A stretch of DNA of 64,000 nt from Streptomyces globosus (GTDB lineage: Bacteria; Actinomycetota; Actinomycetes; Streptomycetales; Streptomycetaceae): positions 995,501 through 1,059,500 of the forward strand of contig NZ_CP030862.1 in assembly GCF_003325375.1 (NCBI RefSeq), in the 5' to 3' direction. Positions within the stretch are counted from its first letter, which is position 1. Each line of letters starts with the position of its first letter. Position numbers and translations under genes: made by a program. Shown in pieces: positions 17,826-24,819 of this stretch. Under the pieces are notes generated by a model. It saw only the letters and a program-made list of their open reading frames with translations. It had not been told where the DNA came from and searched no databases.

Positions 17826-18086
17826 TCAGACGGCGAGCGCCTGCTGCACCTGGGCCAGGCTGGGGTTCGTCATGACCGACTCGGTGCCGGCCGGCGAGAC
17901 GACGAGCACGGTCGGGACGGTCTGGTTCCCGCCGTTCGCCTTCTCGACGAACGCCGCGGACTCCGGGTCCAGCTCGATGTTGATCTCGTTGTACGCGATG
18001 CCTTCCCGGTCCAGCTGGCTCTTCAGCCGGCGGCAGTAGCCGCACCAGGTCGTGCTGTACATCGTCACGGAACCCGTGTCCTGCAT
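17826..18086 (-). CDS. mrx1: mycoredoxin (glutaredoxin-like thiol-disulfide protein)
   Basis: This 86-aa protein has a glutaredoxin fold with active site WCGYC near residues 14-18 and the cis-Pro motif QTVPTVLV. Mycoredoxins use mycothiol to reduce mixed disulfides (S-mycothiolated proteins) in the actinobacterial cytosol. The ATG at 18086 has GAAGGAG upstream; a longer in-frame extension to 18269 is not needed. Upstream on the same strand is a perfect GGAAT-N18-GTT element, the consensus of SigR promoters, so it is probably induced by disulfide stress. It is divergent from uvrD2. Confidence 0.92.
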   Translation of the reverse strand: MQDTGSVTMYSTTWCGYCRRLKSQLDREGIAYNEINIELDPESAAFVEKANGGNQTVPTVLVVSPAGTESVMTNPSLAQVQQALAV

Positions 18087-18133
18087 GCTGCGCTCCTTCG
18101 TGGGGTGTGGGCCTGGGGTGGTCCGAGTACTCG

Positions 18134-18159
18134 AACGTACGGGACCCCGGAGCCATTCC
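18134..18159 (-). promoter_or_regulatory. SigR-type promoter for the mycoredoxin gene
   Basis: On the minus strand, GGAAT (18159-18155) is separated by exactly 18 nt from GTT (18136-18134), about 47 nt ahead of the ATG. It matches the -35/-10 consensus of Streptomyces SigR, whose gene is at 50.3 kb in this window. Confidence 0.75.
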
Positions 18160-18256
18160 CGCACCCGCGGGGCGCCCGGTACGTCAAGTACGACCGCGGC
18201 GGCCCCCTGTGGACGGCCGGTCCCGCCCGCACCGGCGGACCTGGCAGCATGGCGGG

Positions 18257-20449
18257 GTGACAGCAGCAACGCCCTTCCCGTCCTTCCCTTCCGGCACCGG
18301 GGGGTCCGACGGCCCGGCCGACGCGGTGCTCCAGGGCCTGGACCCGGAGCAGCGCGAGGTCGCCACGACCCTGCGCGGACCGGTGTGCGTGCTGGCCGGA
18401 GCCGGTACCGGCAAGACCCGGGCGATCACCCACCGCATCGCCTACGGCGTCCGGTCCGGGCAGCTCGCCCCGGCCAGTGTGCTGGCCGTCACCTTCACCA
18501 ACCGGGCGGCCGGCGAGATGCGCGGCCGGCTGAGGGCGCTCGGCGCGGGCGGGGTCCAGGCGCGGACCTTCCACTCGGCCGCCCTGCGCCAGCTCCAGTA
18601 CTTCTGGCCCCGGGCGATCGGCGGGGAGCCGCCCCGCCTCGTCGAGCGGAAGGTGCAGCTCGTCGCCGAGGCGGGCGCCCGCTGCGGCATCCGCCTCGAC
18701 CGCGGCGAGCTGCGCGACGCCACCGGCGAGATCGAGTGGGCGAAGGCCACCCAGACCGTCCCCGCCGACTACCCGGCGGCCGCCCGGAAGGCGGGCCGCG
18801 AGGCCCCCCGGGACCCGGCCGAGATCGCCCAGCTGTACGGGATGTACGAGCAGCTCAAGCGCGACCGCGTCCTGATCGACTTCGAGGACGTGCTGCTGCT
18901 GACCGTGGGCATCCTCCAGGACCGCCACGACATCGCCGAGCAGGTCCGCAGCCAGTACCAGCACTTCGTCGTCGACGAGTACCAGGACGTCAGCCCCCTC
19001 CAGCAGCGGCTGCTGGAGCTGTGGCTCGGCGACCGCGACAGCCTGTGCGTCGTGGGCGACGCCGGCCAGACCATCTACTCCTTCACCGGCGCCACCCCCG
19101 ACCACCTGCTGGACTTCCGCCGCCGCTACCCGCACGCCACCGTCGTCAGGCTGGTCCGCGACTACCGCTCCACCCCGCAGGTCGTCCACCTCGCGAACGG
19201 GCTGCTGGCCCAGGCGAGCGGCCGGGCCGCCGACCACCGCCTCGAACTGGTCTCCCAGCGCGAGCCCGGACCCGACCCGGTCTACGCCGAGTACGCCGAC
19301 GAGCCCGCCGAGGCCGAGGGCACCGCCGCCCGGATCCGCGACCTCATCGCCGCCGGTGTGCCCGCCGGCGAGATCGCCGTCCTCTTCCGCATCAACGCCC
19401 AGTCCGAGGTCTACGAGCAGGCCCTCGCCGATGCCGGCGTCCCCTACCGGCTGCGCGGCGCCGAGCGGTTCTTCGAGCGGGCCGAGGTGCAGAGGGCGCT
19501 GCTCGCCCTGCGCGGCGCCGCCCGCTCCGCCGGCAACGACCCCCTCCTCGACGACGTCGTCGAGCTCGGCGCCCAGGTCCGCGCCGTCCTCGGCTCCACC
19601 GGCTGGAGCCCCGAGCCGCCCGCCGGCTCGGGGGCCGTCCGCGAGCAGTGGGAGTCCCTGGCCGCGCTGGTCCGCCTCGCCGAGGACTTCGCCCGCGCCC
19701 GGCCCGGGGCCACCCTGGCGGACCTCGCCGTGGAGCTGGAGGAGCGCCGGGCCGCGCAGCACGCCCCGACCGTCCAGGGCGTCACCCTGGCCTCGCTGCA
19801 CGCGGCGAAGGGCCTGGAGTGGGACGCCGTCTTCCTCGTCGGCCTCACCGACGGCATGCTGCCGATCACCTACGCCAAGACCGACGAGCAGGTGGAGGAG
19901 GAGCGCCGCCTCCTCTACGTCGGGGTCACCCGCGCCCGCCACCACCTGACCCTCTCCTGGGCCCTCTCGCGCTCCCCGGGCGGCAGGCCCTCCCGCGTGC
20001 CCAGCCGCTTCCTGAACGGCCTGCGCCCGGGCTCCGGCGGCCGCGCCTCCCGCCCCGGAAGCGGCGGAGGAGCGGGCGTCGAGCGCGGCCCGGCCCGCGG
20101 GCGGGCCCGCCGCGGGCCCGTCCGGTGCCGGGTCTGCGGCCGGACGCTGACCGAGGCCGGCGAGATGAAGCTGATGCGCTGCGAGGACTGCCCGTCCGAC
20201 ATGGACGAGGGCCTGTACGAGCGGCTGCGCGCGTGGCGCGGGATCCAGGCCGGCCGGCAGGGCCTGCCCGCCTACTGCGTCTTCACCGACAAGACGCTGA
20301 TGGCGATCGCGGAAGCGGCGCCCGGCGAGGCGGGGGAGCTGGCGGTGATCCCCGGAGTCGGCGGCCGCAAGCTCGACCGGTACGGGGCCGACGTCCTCGC
20401 CATCTGCGCAGGCAGGGAGCCTGCCGGAGGGGACGGCGCCGACGCGTGA
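18257..20449 (+). CDS. uvrD2: UvrD2-type ATP-dependent DNA helicase with tetracysteine and HRDC domains
   Basis: This 730-aa protein is read from GTG 18257. Superfamily 1 motifs include AGAGTGKTRA (about 45), VVDEYQDVSPLQQ (about 238), GDAGQTIYSFTGA and LHAAKGLEWDAV. After the motor, CRVCGRTL...MRCEDCP forms a four-Cys zinc motif (about 620-645), and a C-terminal HRDC domain covers about 655-725. This architecture is that of mycobacterial UvrD2, a 3'-5' helicase in DNA repair and growth. It is divergent from the mycoredoxin gene and followed directly by the wblC promoter. Confidence 0.94.
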   Translation: MTAATPFPSFPSGTGGSDGPADAVLQGLDPEQREVATTLRGPVCVLAGAGTGKTRAITHRIAYGVRSGQLAPASVLAVTFTNRAAGEMRGRLRALGAGGVQARTFHSAALRQLQYFWPRAIGGEPPRLVERKVQLVAEAGARCGIRLDRGELRDATGEIEWAKATQTVPADYPAAARKAGREAPRDPAEIAQLYGMYEQLKRDRVLIDFEDVLLLTVGILQDRHDIAEQVRSQYQHFVVDEYQDVSPLQQRLLELWLGDRDSLCVVGDAGQTIYSFTGATPDHLLDFRRRYPHATVVRLVRDYRSTPQVVHLANGLLAQASGRAADHRLELVSQREPGPDPVYAEYADEPAEAEGTAARIRDLIAAGVPAGEIAVLFRINAQSEVYEQALADAGVPYRLRGAERFFERAEVQRALLALRGAARSAGNDPLLDDVVELGAQVRAVLGSTGWSPEPPAGSGAVREQWESLAALVRLAEDFARARPGATLADLAVELEERRAAQHAPTVQGVTLASLHAAKGLEWDAVFLVGLTDGMLPITYAKTDEQVEEERRLLYVGVTRARHHLTLSWALSRSPGGRPSRVPSRFLNGLRPGSGGRASRPGSGGGAGVERGPARGRARRGPVRCRVCGRTLTEAGEMKLMRCEDCPSDMDEGLYERLRAWRGIQAGRQGLPAYCVFTDKTLMAIAEAAPGEAGELAVIPGVGGRKLDRYGADVLAICAGREPAGGDGADA

Positions 20450-20469
20450 AAACTCGTCGGAAAAATAGT

Positions 20470-20499
20470 TTGCACATGCCCGCCGGATCCCCATAGGTT
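20470..20499 (+). promoter_or_regulatory. candidate WblC-autoregulated promoter of wblC
   Basis: A -35-like TTGCAC (20470-20475) and -10-like TAGGTT (20494-20499) are 18 bp apart. An AT-rich run AAAAATAG lies immediately upstream of the -35, the hallmark of WhiB7/WblC-activated promoters, and stands out in this GC-rich sequence. It predicts a leader of about 630 nt. Confidence 0.65.
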
Positions 20500-20616
20500 C
20501 TTAGCAACGGAAACGGTGGCTTCTGAGAAGCTCCGGCTCTGTGCTGTACTTATCCGAATACGCATGGGACAGGCCCCCGGGCCCCGTCCCCGAGACGCCG
20601 AGAGGAGGCGAGACCA

Positions 20617-20949
20617 GTGACCAGCTTCATCAACACCACCGCAATGACCGATCGCTCGGTCGCCGCTTCCTGCACGCTCGGCTCCTCCTCGCTCCTCCCG
20701 CTCACGGGTACCGGTCTGTCCGCGATTTCCGCCGACAGCTGCGTCCTGCCTGCCGCGCCCGCCGCGCTGCTCGCGAGCGAGCGGAATGAGCGACCGACCC
20801 AGGCACCGGTGGCAGTAAAGGCAGAAGCCCAGGCTCACGCCTATGGCTTTGCCGCGGCCGGTGCCGGATCCAAGACGAAGCAGACGAAGCAGCAGCACCA
20901 CCTGATGTGGGCCTTCCGTGGGCTCGAACCCTGGAGTGATCCAGCCTGA
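20617..20949 (+). CDS. upstream ORF in the wblC leader (putative regulatory peptide)
   Basis: This 110-codon frame from GTG 20617 has a good RBS (GAGGAGG 9 nt upstream). It encodes a Ser/Ala-rich start, then a basic Lys/Thr/Gln stretch and the tail HHLMWAFRGLEPWSDPA. The stop falls inside a small hairpin (20945-20962), 25 nt before a strong terminator-like hairpin. It lies between the promoter and wblC, where whiB7/wblC leaders of actinobacteria carry a uORF whose translation controls attenuation. It resembles no enzyme. It is probably a sensor of ribosome stalling, or a short peptide gene. Confidence 0.6.
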   Translation: MTSFINTTAMTDRSVAASCTLGSSSLLPLTGTGLSAISADSCVLPAAPAALLASERNERPTQAPVAVKAEAQAHAYGFAAAGAGSKTKQTKQQHHLMWAFRGLEPWSDPA

Positions 20950-21016
20950 TCCAGCGATCAGGCCGGCGCCTTCAGGGCCGCGGAACCCCACCCGGGATCC
21001 GCGGCCCTTCTGTTTG
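20945..21016 (+). promoter_or_regulatory. attenuator region upstream of wblC
   Basis: Two hairpins lie in series. The first is CCTGATC-CAGC-GATCAGG (20945-20962). The second has perfect 11-bp arms at 20974-20984 and 20998-21008 followed by TCTGTTTGT, an intrinsic terminator with a U-rich tail. It sits about 120 nt before wblC, so readthrough is needed for wblC expression. A stalled or skipped uORF could change the folding. Confidence 0.75.
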
Positions 21017-21133
21017 TCCCCGAACGGGGACGGCAGACCGAAGGAGCCTCGGGACTGGCAAGACCAGGTACCAGCCGCCCCCGGCCGAACCGGGCCGGAA
21101 CGACTAGACGAACAAGACGAGGAAGAAAACACC

Positions 21134-21505
21134 GTGCAACTCGAAGCGCACGCCCCGTCCGTACCGCAGACCCAGACGATCTCCCCGCCCGCAGTCCCGG
21201 AGGACTCCGCCTTGACTCCCCTCACCGCGCTGACCGCGCTCGACGACGCCATCGAGAACCTCGGCGTACCCGTCGCCTGCCGCACCTACGACCCGGAGGT
21301 CTTCTTCGCCGAGTCCCCGGCCGACGTCGAGTACGCGAAGTCCCTCTGCCGCACCTGCCCGCTCGTCGAGGCCTGCCTCGCCGGCGCGCTGGAGCGCCGC
21401 GAGCCCTGGGGCGTCTGGGGCGGCGAGCTCTTCGTCCAGGGCGTGGTCGTGGCCCGCAAGCGGCCCCGCGGCCGCCCGCGCAAGAACCCGGTTGCCTCGG
21501 CATGA
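21134..21505 (+). CDS. wblC: WhiB-like Fe-S transcription factor WblC/WhiB7
   Basis: This 123-aa protein is read from GTG 21134. Four cysteines for a [4Fe-4S] cluster lie in VACRTYD, LCRTCPLVEAC, followed by the G(V/I)WGG turn (GVWGGEL). The C-terminus RPRGRPRKNP is an AT-hook, which distinguishes WhiB7/WblC from other Wbl proteins. It binds the primary sigma factor and activates intrinsic antibiotic-resistance genes after ribosome inhibition. A long leader with uORF and attenuator precedes it. The stop overlaps the next start (ATGA). Confidence 0.95.
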   Translation: MQLEAHAPSVPQTQTISPPAVPEDSALTPLTALTALDDAIENLGVPVACRTYDPEVFFAESPADVEYAKSLCRTCPLVEACLAGALERREPWGVWGGELFVQGVVVARKRPRGRPRKNPVASA

Positions 21506-21831
21506 AAGCCACCGGAACCATCGACCGCCCCCTGACGCACGACCCCCTGAAGCAGGCCCCCATGACCGCCCACACGACGAGCGAGAAGCCGCACGGCTCC
21601 GCCCCCGCAGACTTCACCACCACCGGCGCGATCACCTCGCGTCAGAACAGGACCCGCGAAATGCAACTCATCCCAGAAGCCCTGGCCCGTGCCCATATGG
21701 AGGACCGGATGCGTGAGGCCGACGCCGAGCGTCGCGCCCTGCGCCTGGTCGCCGCCCGCCGCATGCAGCGGCGAGCCGAGCGCGTCTCGCTGCGCGCCCG
21801 ACGGGCCCTCGCCATGGCCGTCATGCACTGA
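21502..21831 (+). CDS. small basic protein of unknown function, coupled to wblC
   Basis: This 109-aa frame's ATG overlaps the wblC TGA (ATGA), so it is probably translated with wblC. The first half is low in complexity (Thr/His/Pro). The second half (from about 54, MQLIPEALARAHMEDRMREADAER and on) is a charged, Arg-rich predicted helix. An internal ATG at 21661 could be the true start, giving a 56-aa helical peptide. I recognise no family. Position suggests a role or regulation tied to WblC. Confidence 0.55.
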   Translation: MKATGTIDRPLTHDPLKQAPMTAHTTSEKPHGSAPADFTTTGAITSRQNRTREMQLIPEALARAHMEDRMREADAERRALRLVAARRMQRRAERVSLRARRALAMAVMH

Positions 21832-21899
21832 CGAGCAGCAGCCGCCGCGCCGCCCCGCCGCCACCACCCCGGCGGCGAACCGGCGGCGCACCGGCCACT

Positions 21900-21935
21900 C
21901 CGGGGGGACCGGTCCGCACGGGCCGGTCCCCCCGG
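21900..21935. terminator. terminator-like hairpin after the wblC operon
   Basis: Perfect 13-bp arms (21900-21912 and 21923-21935) with a 10-nt loop lie 69 bp after the small ORF stop. Confidence 0.75.
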
Positions 21936-21979
21936 TGCGTTGCGGTGCCGCGCAGCCGCGGCGGGGATATCGTCTGGAG

Positions 21980-22186
21980 GTGGACCAGCAGACCCCCCCT
22001 CCCGACCCGTCGGGAACCGAGCCCGAGCCCGCCGTCTGCGCGCGCTGCGGCACACGGTCCCCCGGCGGCGCCCCGCCCACCTGGACCTGCTCCGTCGAGA
22101 ACGGGACCAGACAGTACTTCTGCGTGGACTGCGCCCGCGCCAACCTCCGCGCGATCGAGGGCCGCCTCGACTCGTCCTGGTGGTGA
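21980..22186 (+). CDS. small zinc-ribbon-like protein
   Basis: This 68-aa protein is read from GTG 21980, with GGAG directly abutting the start. After a Pro-rich start it has paired cysteines CARCGTR and later CSVENG...CVDCARANL, ending in DSSWW. The spacing suggests a small zinc-binding domain. Function is unknown. It converges with the ABC1-kinase gene, 24 bp away. Confidence 0.65.
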   Translation: MDQQTPPPDPSGTEPEPAVCARCGTRSPGGAPPTWTCSVENGTRQYFCVDCARANLRAIEGRLDSSWW

Positions 22187-22210
22187 CCGCCGGCCGCTGC
22201 CCCCGCCCGC

Positions 22211-23539
22211 TCACTCCCCCGGCAGGAACCCCGGCAGCCACGACTCCAGTTCGCCGCGCAGCCGCACCGTCGCCCCGAGCTGGCACAGCACCCCGATGGT
22301 GCTCAGCGTCACCCGGTGGATCAGCAGATACGACGGCGGCAGGTTGATCTGCCGGCCCAACTGGTGTGCGGGGGACCGCGGATCGGCGATGCGGGCCGCC
22401 TGCCCGCGCAGCCACGACCGCGTGAAGGTGAACTCCTCCGCCTCGACGGGCTCGACGATCGGCTTGAGGTACTCCAGCACCGCCTGCGGATCCAGCTCGA
22501 TGGACTCCCGCACGAACCCCTCGCCGCACAGGTGCCCGTATATCCCCTCGGCGTCGTCCTCCAGCGTCATCCGCAGCGAGGTGCCGATCGGCTCCGGCCA
22601 GCCGCCCGGCAGCCGGTCGACCGTGCCGAAGTCCAGCACGCCGAGCCTCAGCCGGCCCTCTTCCCCCTCGATGAGCCGGAAGTTGCCCGGATGCGGATCC
22701 GCGTGCAGCAGCCCCGTCCGCGCCGGGCCGGTGAAGAGGAACCGGGCCAGCAACTGCCCCGCACGGTCCCGCTCCTCCCGGGTGCCGCCGGATATCACCT
22801 CCGACAGCGGGGTCCCCTCCAGCCACTCCGTCACCAGCACCTGCTCGCCCTGGTGCACCACCCGCGGCACCACCACGTCCGGATCGTCCTCGAACGCCTC
22901 CGCGTGCGTCCGCTGCGCCTCGGCCTCCAGGGCGTAGTCGAGCTCCTCCGCCACCCGCTCCTGCATCTCGTGGATCAGCGGCTTGAGGTCCATCCCCGGC
23001 ACCAGAGGCCCCAGCAGCCCCGCGAACCGCCCCAGTTGGCGCAGGTCCGACAGCAGCGCCTCCCCGGCCCCCGGGTACTGCACCTTGACGGCCACCTCCC
23101 GGCCGTCGTGCCACACCGCCCGGTGCACCTGCCCGATCGACGCCGCCGCGGCCGGCTCGTCCTCGAACTCCCGGAACGACTCACGCCACTCCGGCCCGAG
23201 GCGCTCGGCCAGCACCTGGTGGACCGTCTGCGCGGGCAGCGGCGGCGCCGCCTCCTGAAGCTTGGTCAGAGCCGCCCGGTAGGGACCGGCGAAGTCCTCC
23301 GGCAGGGCCGACTCGAAGACGGAGAGCGCCTGCCCCAGCTTCATGGCACCGCCCTTCAGCTCGCCGAGGGTGCGGAACAGCTGGTCGGCGGTGCGCTGTT
23401 GGATCTCGCGCGCGACGATCTCCGCCGACTTGCCGCCGATCCGCTTCCCCAGCCCCCAGGTGGCCCGGCCCGCGATGCCGAGCGGCAGAGCGGCCAGCTT
23501 GACGGTACGGGTGACCGCCTTCCGGGGAAGATCAGACAT
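22211..23539 (-). CDS. ABC1/AarF (UbiB-like) atypical kinase family protein
   Basis: This 442-aa protein is read from ATG 23539 (GGAG upstream). The family motif KxGQ appears in GGAMKLGQALSVF (about 65). An Ala-rich loop EPAAAASIGQVHRA, catalytic-like HADPHPGNF (about 275) and metal-binding LDFGTVD (about 295) follow. ABC1 proteins are ATP-binding kinase-like proteins linked to quinone lipid metabolism. An equivalent gene is next to whiB7 in mycobacteria (from memory). The in-frame extension upstream to 25147 is Gly/Arg-rich shadow. Confidence 0.92.
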   Translation of the reverse strand: MSDLPRKAVTRTVKLAALPLGIAGRATWGLGKRIGGKSAEIVAREIQQRTADQLFRTLGELKGGAMKLGQALSVFESALPEDFAGPYRAALTKLQEAAPPLPAQTVHQVLAERLGPEWRESFREFEDEPAAAASIGQVHRAVWHDGREVAVKVQYPGAGEALLSDLRQLGRFAGLLGPLVPGMDLKPLIHEMQERVAEELDYALEAEAQRTHAEAFEDDPDVVVPRVVHQGEQVLVTEWLEGTPLSEVISGGTREERDRAGQLLARFLFTGPARTGLLHADPHPGNFRLIEGEEGRLRLGVLDFGTVDRLPGGWPEPIGTSLRMTLEDDAEGIYGHLCGEGFVRESIELDPQAVLEYLKPIVEPVEAEEFTFTRSWLRGQAARIADPRSPAHQLGRQINLPPSYLLIHRVTLSTIGVLCQLGATVRLRGELESWLPGFLPGE

Positions 23540-23712
23540 GCGCCCCTCCAATTCCCAGAGTGCCGTGCCGCAGGCGGCGGTTCGGGGTGCCCTCCCCGCA
23601 CCTGCGTCACAGCGCATCCTGTCATGGCCCCTCCCGGCCCCTCCCGGCCCCTCCGGCCCGCATCCGCCGGCCCGCGGGCAGCCGGCGCCCGCCGCCCTCA
23701 CGCCCGCCGCCC

Positions 23713-24819
23713 TCATGCCCCCGCCTCCTGCCCCGCCGGCACGACCGCCGCCGCACACGGGCAGTCCGGATGCGGCGCCACGGCCGTCCGCTCCCAGTGC
23801 AGGGCCGGCAGGGCAGCCTCCCAGCGGGCGGCCGTGGAGGCCGGCAGCTCCCCGTCGAGGAACGACAGCGCATGGGCCGCGGCCAGCCCCGCGACGGCCG
23901 TGGCCAGCCCGAGATCGCAGGCGGCCGCCGTCCGGCGCCGGTGGGCCGAGCGCCACTGCACCAGCATCCGCGGCCAGGCCGGATCCCGGTCGACGCGCTC
24001 CCGCTCCATGCATCCCGCGCACGCCGTGACCCCCGGCAGCACCAGCGGACCCACCACCCCCGTGCCCTCCAGTACCCCCGCGTACAGGTGCGGCACCCCG
24101 GTCGCGATCCAGTCGGCCGCCACCCCCGGATCCGGCGCCCAGGACTGGAGCCCGTCCCGGGGCGCGACCACCACCAGCGCCGGCCCCGTCTCGTACCCGC
24201 CCCTCCCGGCCGACCGCGGAGCCCGCCCCGGGGCCGCCTCCCGCACCAGCGCCGCCGCGGCCTCGGCCCTGAGCCGGCCGACACTGCCGGGCCCCAGCCC
24301 GCCCGGAGCGACATCGGCCGGCTCCACCCGGCCCCCGTCGAGCACCTCGATCCGGCCCACACCCGCAGCCGCCAGCACCGCCGCAAGCACACCGCCCACC
24401 CGGCCGCTGCCCCGCACCACAACCCGTATCGCCCGCCGCGCCGCCACCCCGCGCAGGTCGCCCCCCGGCTCCCGGTGCACCAGCGACAGCGACCCCAGGT
24501 CGGGCCCGAGCCGCTCCAGCGTCTCCGGCCTGCTGCGCACCGCCTGGGCCGGCGGGCCGCCCGCCGTGGCGTCGTCGAGCAGCCCGGCCGCCGCCAGCCG
24601 CCGCACCAGCCCGTCCGCCTGCCCCGCCGGCAGGCCCATCGCCGACGCCTCCTCGCGGAGCCGGTCCATGCCCCGCGTCCCGTCGATCCGGTCGATCAGC
24701 GACCCCGTCGCCGTGTCCACCGGGCCCAGCACCACCGCGTGCGCCGGTGTCACCCCGAACTGGACCGTCTGCAGATCGCGCCACGCCCTCGCCAGGGCCG
24801 GCTTCACCTTCGGATACAC
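23713..24819 (-). CDS. degenerate ThiF/E1-like protein
   Basis: This 368-aa protein is read from GTG 24819, which has a strong GGAGGAAGGGGAAG ribosome site. The N-terminal 130 residues resemble the leader-binding/winged region of ThiF-like proteins in peptide-modifying clusters. Then follows a Rossmann motif VVVRGSGRVGGVLA with VLDGGRVEPADV, and later CAGCMERERV and PDCPC as possible zinc ligands. The usual ThiF Arg residues after the nucleotide loop (NLxRQ type) are absent. No precursor peptide or cyclodehydratase partner is nearby. It is divergent from the YgjP-like peptidase. Function is unknown. Confidence 0.7.
   Translation of the reverse strand: MYPKVKPALARAWRDLQTVQFGVTPAHAVVLGPVDTATGSLIDRIDGTRGMDRLREEASAMGLPAGQADGLVRRLAAAGLLDDATAGGPPAQAVRSRPETLERLGPDLGSLSLVHREPGGDLRGVAARRAIRVVVRGSGRVGGVLAAVLAAAGVGRIEVLDGGRVEPADVAPGGLGPGSVGRLRAEAAAALVREAAPGRAPRSAGRGGYETGPALVVVAPRDGLQSWAPDPGVAADWIATGVPHLYAGVLEGTGVVGPLVLPGVTACAGCMERERVDRDPAWPRMLVQWRSAHRRRTAAACDLGLATAVAGLAAAHALSFLDGELPASTAARWEAALPALHWERTAVAPHPDCPCAAAVVPAGQEAGA

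Follow-up and report, generated by a model that had tools for sequence, protein, structure and literature searches.

A predicted ribosome-controlled transcription attenuator in the wblC leader of Streptomyces globosus, with an antiterminator built from the last codons of its uORF

Introduction

In actinomycetes, WblC/WhiB7 governs intrinsic multidrug resistance, and the leader of its gene sets when this programme starts. Passages in PMC11550727, PMC9618640 and PMC13393426 that cite Lee, Lee & Roe 2022 describe how translation of an upstream open reading frame (uORF) in the wblC/whiB7 leader promotes a Rho-independent terminator, and how inhibition of that translation promotes an antiterminator. 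In a further citing passage, in PMC10727445, the antiterminator is said to draw on sequences of uORF and terminator that overlap. As these passages present it, uORF attenuation of wblC/whiB7 is a known system and essentially published (Lee, Lee & Roe 2022, Mol Microbiol 117:179). Passages in PMC7157823 describe a WblC box, GAAAWY, located 3 nt 5' of the -35 element, and autoactivation by WblC. Citing passages and one title also credit mycobacterial whiB7 with sensing a shortage of alanine.

Here we analyse the leader of wblC in a window of Streptomyces globosus DNA, by which we mean the whole stretch of 64,000 nt under study. An earlier note, made from the letters of this DNA, had proposed that drug-stalled translation of a uORF frees wblC from termination. 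We consider it highly probable (about 0.88) that the locus is a ribosome-controlled transcription attenuator of wblC. Given the published work on this system, the main interest of the locus is an exact pairing map and an unexplained second element within the uORF.

Results

The gene and its promoter

All features described below lie on the + strand unless stated otherwise. The gene directly 3' of the leader (21134-21505, GTG start) encodes a WhiB domain (Pfam WhiB, E 1.7e-16) and an AT-hook-like end (AT_hook, E 0.02, under the curated cut-off). Of 10 Wbl-like matches in the genome it scores best, with the runner-up at an E value of 5.7e-11, and together these results identify it as wblC/whiB7. 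A small ORF without a Pfam match (21502-21828) has an ATG that overlaps the wblC stop and is possibly translationally coupled to wblC; an ORF of this LIPEALARAH type lies 3' of wblC at 38 of the 63 loci where the sequence extends far enough beyond the gene. On the same strand, a gene for a uvrD-like UvrD/HRDC helicase (18107-20449) precedes the leader, and downstream on the other strand lies one for an ABC1-type atypical kinase (22214-23539). Mycobacterial whiB7 has similar neighbours.

Above the leader we found the elements of the WblC-type promoter that the earlier note had read from an AT-rich patch and -35/-10 hexamers: an AT-rich box, GAAAAAT (20460-20466), lies 3 nt 5' of a -35 element, TTGCAC (20470-20475), which an 18-nt spacer separates from a -10 element, TAGGTT (20494-20499). 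The coordinates of the earlier note hold. Five of six positions agree with the published WblC box, as does the spacing of 3 nt, and the promoter blocks AAAATAGTTTGC and CCATAGGTTC are conserved at 95% or more across 61 aligned genus leaders. The pattern AAAWY-N3-TTG-N21-TANNNT matches once in the 64-kb window and in none of 100 shuffles, a descriptive count, since the pattern was composed after the site had been seen. Autoactivation through this promoter would follow the partial account in PMC7157823. A general scan missed both this promoter and the terminator described below, finding no site at its sigma-70 threshold; in our own reading it passed over the terminator because it allows loops of at most 8 nt, and 13 nt separate the 11-bp arms. 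Transcription probably starts at about 20506, and the leader would be about 630 nt long (~628 nt) only if the start is near this position. At its 5' end, alifold of the 61 leaders draws a hairpin (20510-20539) with an 11-bp helix, in which 93% of cells are paired and 32 cells are altered on both sides, as counted without a shuffle control.

A coding uORF of ordinary length

The uORF (20617-20949) has a GTG start, 110 codons and a TGA stop at 20947-20949, and a Shine-Dalgarno sequence, AGGAGG, precedes it at 20603-20608. The earlier note had called this a 110-codon uORF with a good ribosome binding site, and the comparison bears it out. Gaps divisible by three make up 3386 of 3538 in the uORF vs 201 of 2201 in the 5' UTR, as counted over 600 random pairs from the 61 genus leaders, which overlap, so that the gaps are not independent events. 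Across the family leaders the alternative frames over the uORF span are seldom open (+1 in 0/97, +2 in 13/97), frame 0 being open by construction. In codons 38-54 the third base is the most variable (entropies 0.75, 0.84 and 1.23), as in coding DNA. A Shine-Dalgarno-like site precedes 134 of 135 uORFs, with the qualification that starts were picked by Shine-Dalgarno score and that some outside the family are weak. Judged by these patterns, the uORF is evolving as a coding frame.

That the leader is longer than usual, as had been supposed, does not hold: uORFs in the family span 90-181 codons with a median of exactly 110 (n=97), and those of other families 43-202 codons with a median of 85 (n=37).

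Two predicted RNA states

The stop codon sits in a small hairpin, GCCTGATC/GATCAGGC (20944-20951 with 20956-20963), and 24 nt separate the stop from a second, perfect stem of 11 bp; the earlier note had seen this arrangement and put the distance at 25 nt. This second structure, an intrinsic terminator (20974-21017), pairs AGGGCCGCGGA at 20974-20984 with TCCGCGGCCCT at 20998-21008, carries CCC/GGG on top and ends in a U-rich tail, TCTGTTTGT (21009-21017); its fold has an energy of -30.2 kcal/mol and a z score of -4.8. The terminator was thus correctly recognised in the earlier note. The antiterminator, which the note had not named, was found here by folding and covariation.

The 5' strand of the antiterminator (20907-20936) consists of GTGGG at 20907-20911, TTCCGTGG at 20914-20921 and CCCTGGAG at 20929-20936, and so falls on the uORF codons for W-A-F-R-G and P-W-S. 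Its 3' strand (20970-20991) consists of CTTCAGGG at 20970-20977, CCGCGGAA at 20978-20985 and CCCAC at 20987-20991, and overlaps the 5' arm of the terminator. In the nascent RNA 20895-20990, RNAfold pairs 20914-20921 with 20978-20985 and 20929-20936 with 20970-20977, enclosing the stop hairpin (-48.0 kcal/mol, z -3.5); an RNA six bases longer adds GTGGG paired with CCCAC. When a ribosome at the stop was represented by 32 masked bases, the energy of the best nascent fold went from -48.0 to only -21.3 kcal/mol. Even under this mask the terminator arm of the nascent RNA is likely to stay paired upstream, with a probability that falls from 1.0 to 0.79 here, from 0.96 to 0.74 in the family mean and from 0.71 to 0.49 in other families. 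In the full-length RNA the terminator is preferred at equilibrium at this locus, with a ribosome or without (P 0.98 and 1.00). Because equilibrium favours the terminator in either case, the model implies that the switch must be kinetic, with the antiterminator forming first and persisting while polymerase passes the U-rich tail; we therefore infer kinetic rather than equilibrium control at the wblC leader.

Two other pairings were considered and set aside. A GCCGCGGCC run in the uORF (near 20853) could have served as an antiterminator strand; it is occupied by the hairpin we call B, and the fold favours the tail codons. Alifold also draws the Shine-Dalgarno sequence of the uORF (GGAGGCG) with a pre-terminator CGCCTTC, and the diagnostic base of this pairing does not covary (C/G in 62 and C/A in 30 of 97).

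Comparative support for both states

We compared 144 loci, namely this locus and 143 further wblC loci from genus, family and class genomes (L001 and L009-L151), 80 of which (L072-L151) were hand-picked for spread. A terminator and a uORF were recovered at 139 of them; four (L019, L126, L129 and L141) lacked the pattern terminator and one (L133) was not oriented. Removal of four duplicates left 135 leaders, 97 from the family and 38 from elsewhere.

In this alignment 85.7% of antiterminator cells are paired, vs 31-47% when the strands are slid by 1-3 columns, and 123 cells are changed on both sides, vs 36.5 in shuffled alignments, with none of 500 shuffles reaching the observed count. The terminator has 97.6% of cells paired and 40 both-side changes vs 8.5 shuffled, and 9 of the 10 pairs in the stop hairpin show a both-side change. 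Since relatedness among the leaders is not accounted for in the shuffles, weight falls on the slid controls and on a swap test. At the 38 non-family loci, the helix over the W codon is more stable with its own strands than with swapped ones (-12.29 vs -10.31 kcal/mol, permutation p 2e-4), and so is the FRG helix (-13.48 vs -12.87 kcal/mol, p 0.003). Within the family the W helix is near-invariant (matched -14.72 vs swapped -14.85, p 0.96) and the FRG helix gives a weak signal (p 0.015). The first stop base lies 24-32 nt from the GGCC of the terminator in the 97 family leaders and 11-31 nt in the 38 others, distances that are partly imposed, as is base invariance, because the search pattern fixes the GGCC arms of the terminator and the search admitted stops no more than 60 nt away. 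An antiterminator made from uORF and terminator sequence is supported by covariation across 135 leaders.

Why the tail of the leader peptide is conserved

The earlier note suggested that the uORF tail, HHLMWAFRGLEPWSDPA, may be the conserved part, and asked whether leaders of other Streptomyces conserve the peptide tail or only the hairpins. The tail is indeed conserved: named Streptomyces records among the matches listed share RGLEPWSDPA and close variants, within the family conservation of the tail is strong, and in many other families the peptide ends in W-S-P-P-V. Both tail and hairpins are kept, and across families the peptide follows the RNA. The tail codons appear to be conserved mainly because they are the 5' strand of the antiterminator.

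An alternative is that the tail, WAFRGLEPWSDPA, is an arrest peptide: with or without the help of a drug, its nascent chain would bring the ribosome to a halt near the stop, or slow it there, and would make up all or part of the sensor. Proline-rich ends beside a stop occur in arrest peptides. Conservation of the tail within the family and of W-S-P-P-V beyond it would also be expected of such a peptide. So would the pattern within the genus, where the third base of tail codons 98-110 is slightly more variable than the others (entropies 0.04, 0.14 and 0.24). The third bases that vary, in codons -10, -8 and -4, either have no partner in the antiterminator or are C or U facing a G; within the genus, third-base variation of the tail would fit the peptide and the RNA reading alike.

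Comparison across families argues against a peptide that is conserved for its own sake, since residues change there while the pairing stays. Micromonospora, Actinoplanes and similar records carry the tail PPRGRPV instead of PWSDPA because CCTGGAG/CTCCAGG became CCTCGAG/CTCGAGG. Scored as CTGGAG or CTCGAG states, the two strands are never mixed in 194 scored rows (173 + 21 of 217). The other 23 of the 217 rows were unscored, and in six of these the 3' strand is changed but the 5' strand lacks TCGAG. Five of the six are of the Geodermatophilaceae type, with weaker pairing, and the sixth, L182, reflects a wrongly picked uORF end. On trees this exchange amounts to about four events, with 4 changes on each strand, one of them on well-supported branches, which is too few for a sign test. 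In a further locus, L118, CCTTTGAG pairs with CTCAAAGG and Phe replaces Trp. Trp is likewise lost while the pairing is kept in the tails PPRGRPV, SRPPI and PAFEDPL.

Single codons tell a similar story. In the family rows, TGG at codon -13 goes with A in the terminator loop in 76/76 cases and CGG with G in 12/12, other codons accounting for 9 of 97; on trees this exchange comprises 4 and 3 changes, again too few for a sign test, with one mixed row among 131 scored and 9 of 140 unscored. At codon -11 of the 97 family members the third base is C in 98%, and bases 1 and 2 vary (Phe, Tyr, Leu, Ile or His). Codon -4 is AGN, encoding Ser or Arg, in at least 94 of 97, and the last codon has an invariant third base and encodes Ala, Thr, Val, Asp or Pro. 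Conservation of bases rather than residues at codons -11, -4 and the last is, on this alignment, not what selection on a peptide gives. Furthermore, stalling at the stop would favour termination and not induction. An arrest peptide therefore seems unlikely as the sensor. Conservation of the peptide tail is, by this comparison, mainly an RNA feature, and an additional role of the peptide is possible. In the passages we surveyed, several of which cite Lee, Lee & Roe 2022, no statement explains the conserved peptide by its tail codons.

Further constraint within the uORF

The uORF is under RNA-level constraint beyond the antiterminator, visible in frozen third bases, in a helix and in a recurrent element. 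In codons 55-72 the third bases are frozen (mean entropies 0.31, 0.47 and 0.39), and even A-ending codons, unusual in GC-rich DNA, are fixed in the genus leaders (CGA in 61/61 at codon 59, GCA in 59/61 at codon 63). Many third positions are frozen over the wider span of codons 55-84 (20779-20868), which is partly explained by hairpin B (20799-20867). Helix B has 26 both-side changes vs 15.9 shuffled outside the genus (0/300 shuffles) and a weak excess inside it (7 vs 3.0, 41/300). A helix A (20656-20662 with 20791-20797) was also tried and not retained; it is conserved, and with both-side changes of 0 vs 0.2 in the genus and 3 vs 3.2 outside, covariation neither supports nor refutes it.

The recurrent element, GGnACnGGTnTGyCC, occupies codons 31-35 here (20707-20721, peptide GTGLS). 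It occurs in 62/97 family uORFs and in 5/37 and 4/36 elsewhere, two sets that may overlap, and is close to zero in codon shuffles. All 71 matches are in frame 0, encoding GTG[LMV][SP], and the codon position differs between actinobacterial families.

Alanine makes up 22 of the 110 residues of the uORF, vs 12.6% in two neighbouring proteins, and is dispersed. The longest runs of one residue in the uORF are of three (SSS and AAA), with no run of one amino acid as in the trp and ilv attenuators. By analogy with mycobacterial whiB7, the enrichment would suit a sensor of alanine shortage.

Distribution of the element

A covariance model of the stop hairpin and terminator finds one convincing site in the genome (E 2.1e-28). 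No further convincing copy was found there, the remaining matches being this stem read on the other strand (E 0.0013) or having E values of 0.5 or more. In the class the model matches 129 of 197 genomes and 63 of 90 genera. Several genera among the 68 of 197 genomes without a match do have a WblC match, so that in some lineages the element is either missing or has diverged too far. At four loci (L084, L093, L130 and L132) the terminator or tail is diverged. Other control is possible in lineages with a diverged terminator or tail or with no match to the model.

Among 80 listed of 118 exact matches to the terminator, 78 have a Wbl gene within 1.2 kb downstream, recognised by its cysteines and G-x-W-G-G motif, by which WblC cannot be told from other Wbl proteins; at the other two the available DNA stops 138 and 224 bases past the match. 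These 80 matches suggest an element that serves wblC alone. Viral contigs gave no exact match to the terminator pattern. A search of 18000-24000 against Rfam at E values up to 1 gave three matches, none at the antiterminator or terminator; one of them (E 0.95, minus strand, far under the gathering score) overlaps the uORF start.

Discussion

Our findings suggest the following course of events at this locus. A WblC-dependent promoter would start the RNA near 20506. As long as the cell is undisturbed, a ribosome close behind RNA polymerase would translate the 110-codon uORF and arrive at the stop at 20947, where its footprint would cover the P-W-S codons and the stop hairpin and weaken the antiterminator. 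The 11-bp terminator could then fold, and transcription would stop near 21010-21017. A ribosome held upstream by a drug or by starvation would leave the tail RNA free; the newly made 20970-20991 would then pair with 20907-20936 and sequester the 5' arm of the terminator, and polymerase would continue into wblC, whose product would feed back on its own promoter. Relief of termination by drugs and autoactivation are taken here from publications on the gene family and would apply by analogy. The proposal of the earlier note, that drug-stalled translation of the uORF releases wblC from termination, is consistent with this anatomy, with the comparative evidence and with published whiB7/wblC control.

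Two simpler roles for these elements can be weighed against the same evidence. The terminator at 20974 might mainly end transcripts of the uvrD-like helicase gene, with the wblC promoter lying below it; the helicase gene does lie upstream on the same strand, and the general scan called no + strand terminator in 20000-21700, although it missed the one at 20974 as well. This is very improbable, given a conserved WblC-type promoter above the uORF and given that a simple stop needs neither a frame-conserving uORF nor a covarying antiterminator. Equally hard to credit is control by Rho, in which the long uORF RNA lies bare whenever translation stalls or is missing, and RNA structure sets access of Rho in place of a terminator/antiterminator switch: the leader is long and GC-rich and has RNA structure beyond the antiterminator (the frozen third positions of codons 55-72 and hairpin B, which covaries outside the genus), but loss of translation would then lower wblC, opposite to the published induction by drugs, and the intrinsic terminator is highly conserved.

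With attenuation by ribosome position as the preferred reading, the length of the uORF invites speculation. With many places where a ribosome might stall, so long a uORF would be well suited to sensing a broad range of drugs. More tentatively, and with the odds against it, the long uORF may do more than keep time: it may be a structured RNA of several elements that holds a second conserved checkpoint. GGnACnGGTnTGyCC and the frozen codons 55-84 around the covarying hairpin would then pause polymerase or the ribosome, so that drug classes that stall ribosomes at different places free the same antiterminator.

Our analysis has several uses beyond this locus. It gives exact base pairs that can be tested (20929-20936/20970-20977, 20914-20921/20978-20985 and 20907-20911/20987-20991). 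The covariance model detects the element in 129 of 197 class genomes although Rfam shows no matching family at the attenuator. Finally, the tail carries a caution, in that a conserved leader-peptide tail alone is no evidence for an arrest peptide.

Comparison with described systems places the locus within a broader range of ribosome-controlled leaders. Amino-acid attenuators (trp, ilvBNC and, in passages of PMC13236596, ilvB1 of M. tuberculosis) are alike in that the position of a ribosome decides between a terminator and an antiterminator that exclude each other, but the uORF here is without a run of one regulatory codon. The leaders of ARE ABCF genes of S. coelicolor (tiaA and are5sc), as described in passages of PMC12421871, share a drug-responsive uORF, a terminator and an antiterminator, the drug response at our locus being assumed by analogy; their uORFs are very short (MLV and MVGDDDISG) and stalled at the start codon, whereas the uORF here has 110 codons and precedes a global regulator. 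Closer still is the mycobacterial whiB7 leader, described for M. bovis and M. marinum and discussed for M. tuberculosis in PMC4128351, which also has a uORF followed by a T-tailed stem-loop, with transcription dropping after the uORF; there the leader starts ~350 nt 5' of the gene, vs ~630 nt here from the predicted start. The closest system is the wblC/whiB7 uORF attenuator of actinomycetes (Lee, Lee & Roe 2022; Burian & Thompson 2018). As far as the partial accounts of it reach, we found no difference that would remove our locus from this kind, and the two have in common the orthologous gene, a WblC-type promoter, a uORF, an intrinsic terminator and an antiterminator drawn from uORF and terminator (PMC10727445).
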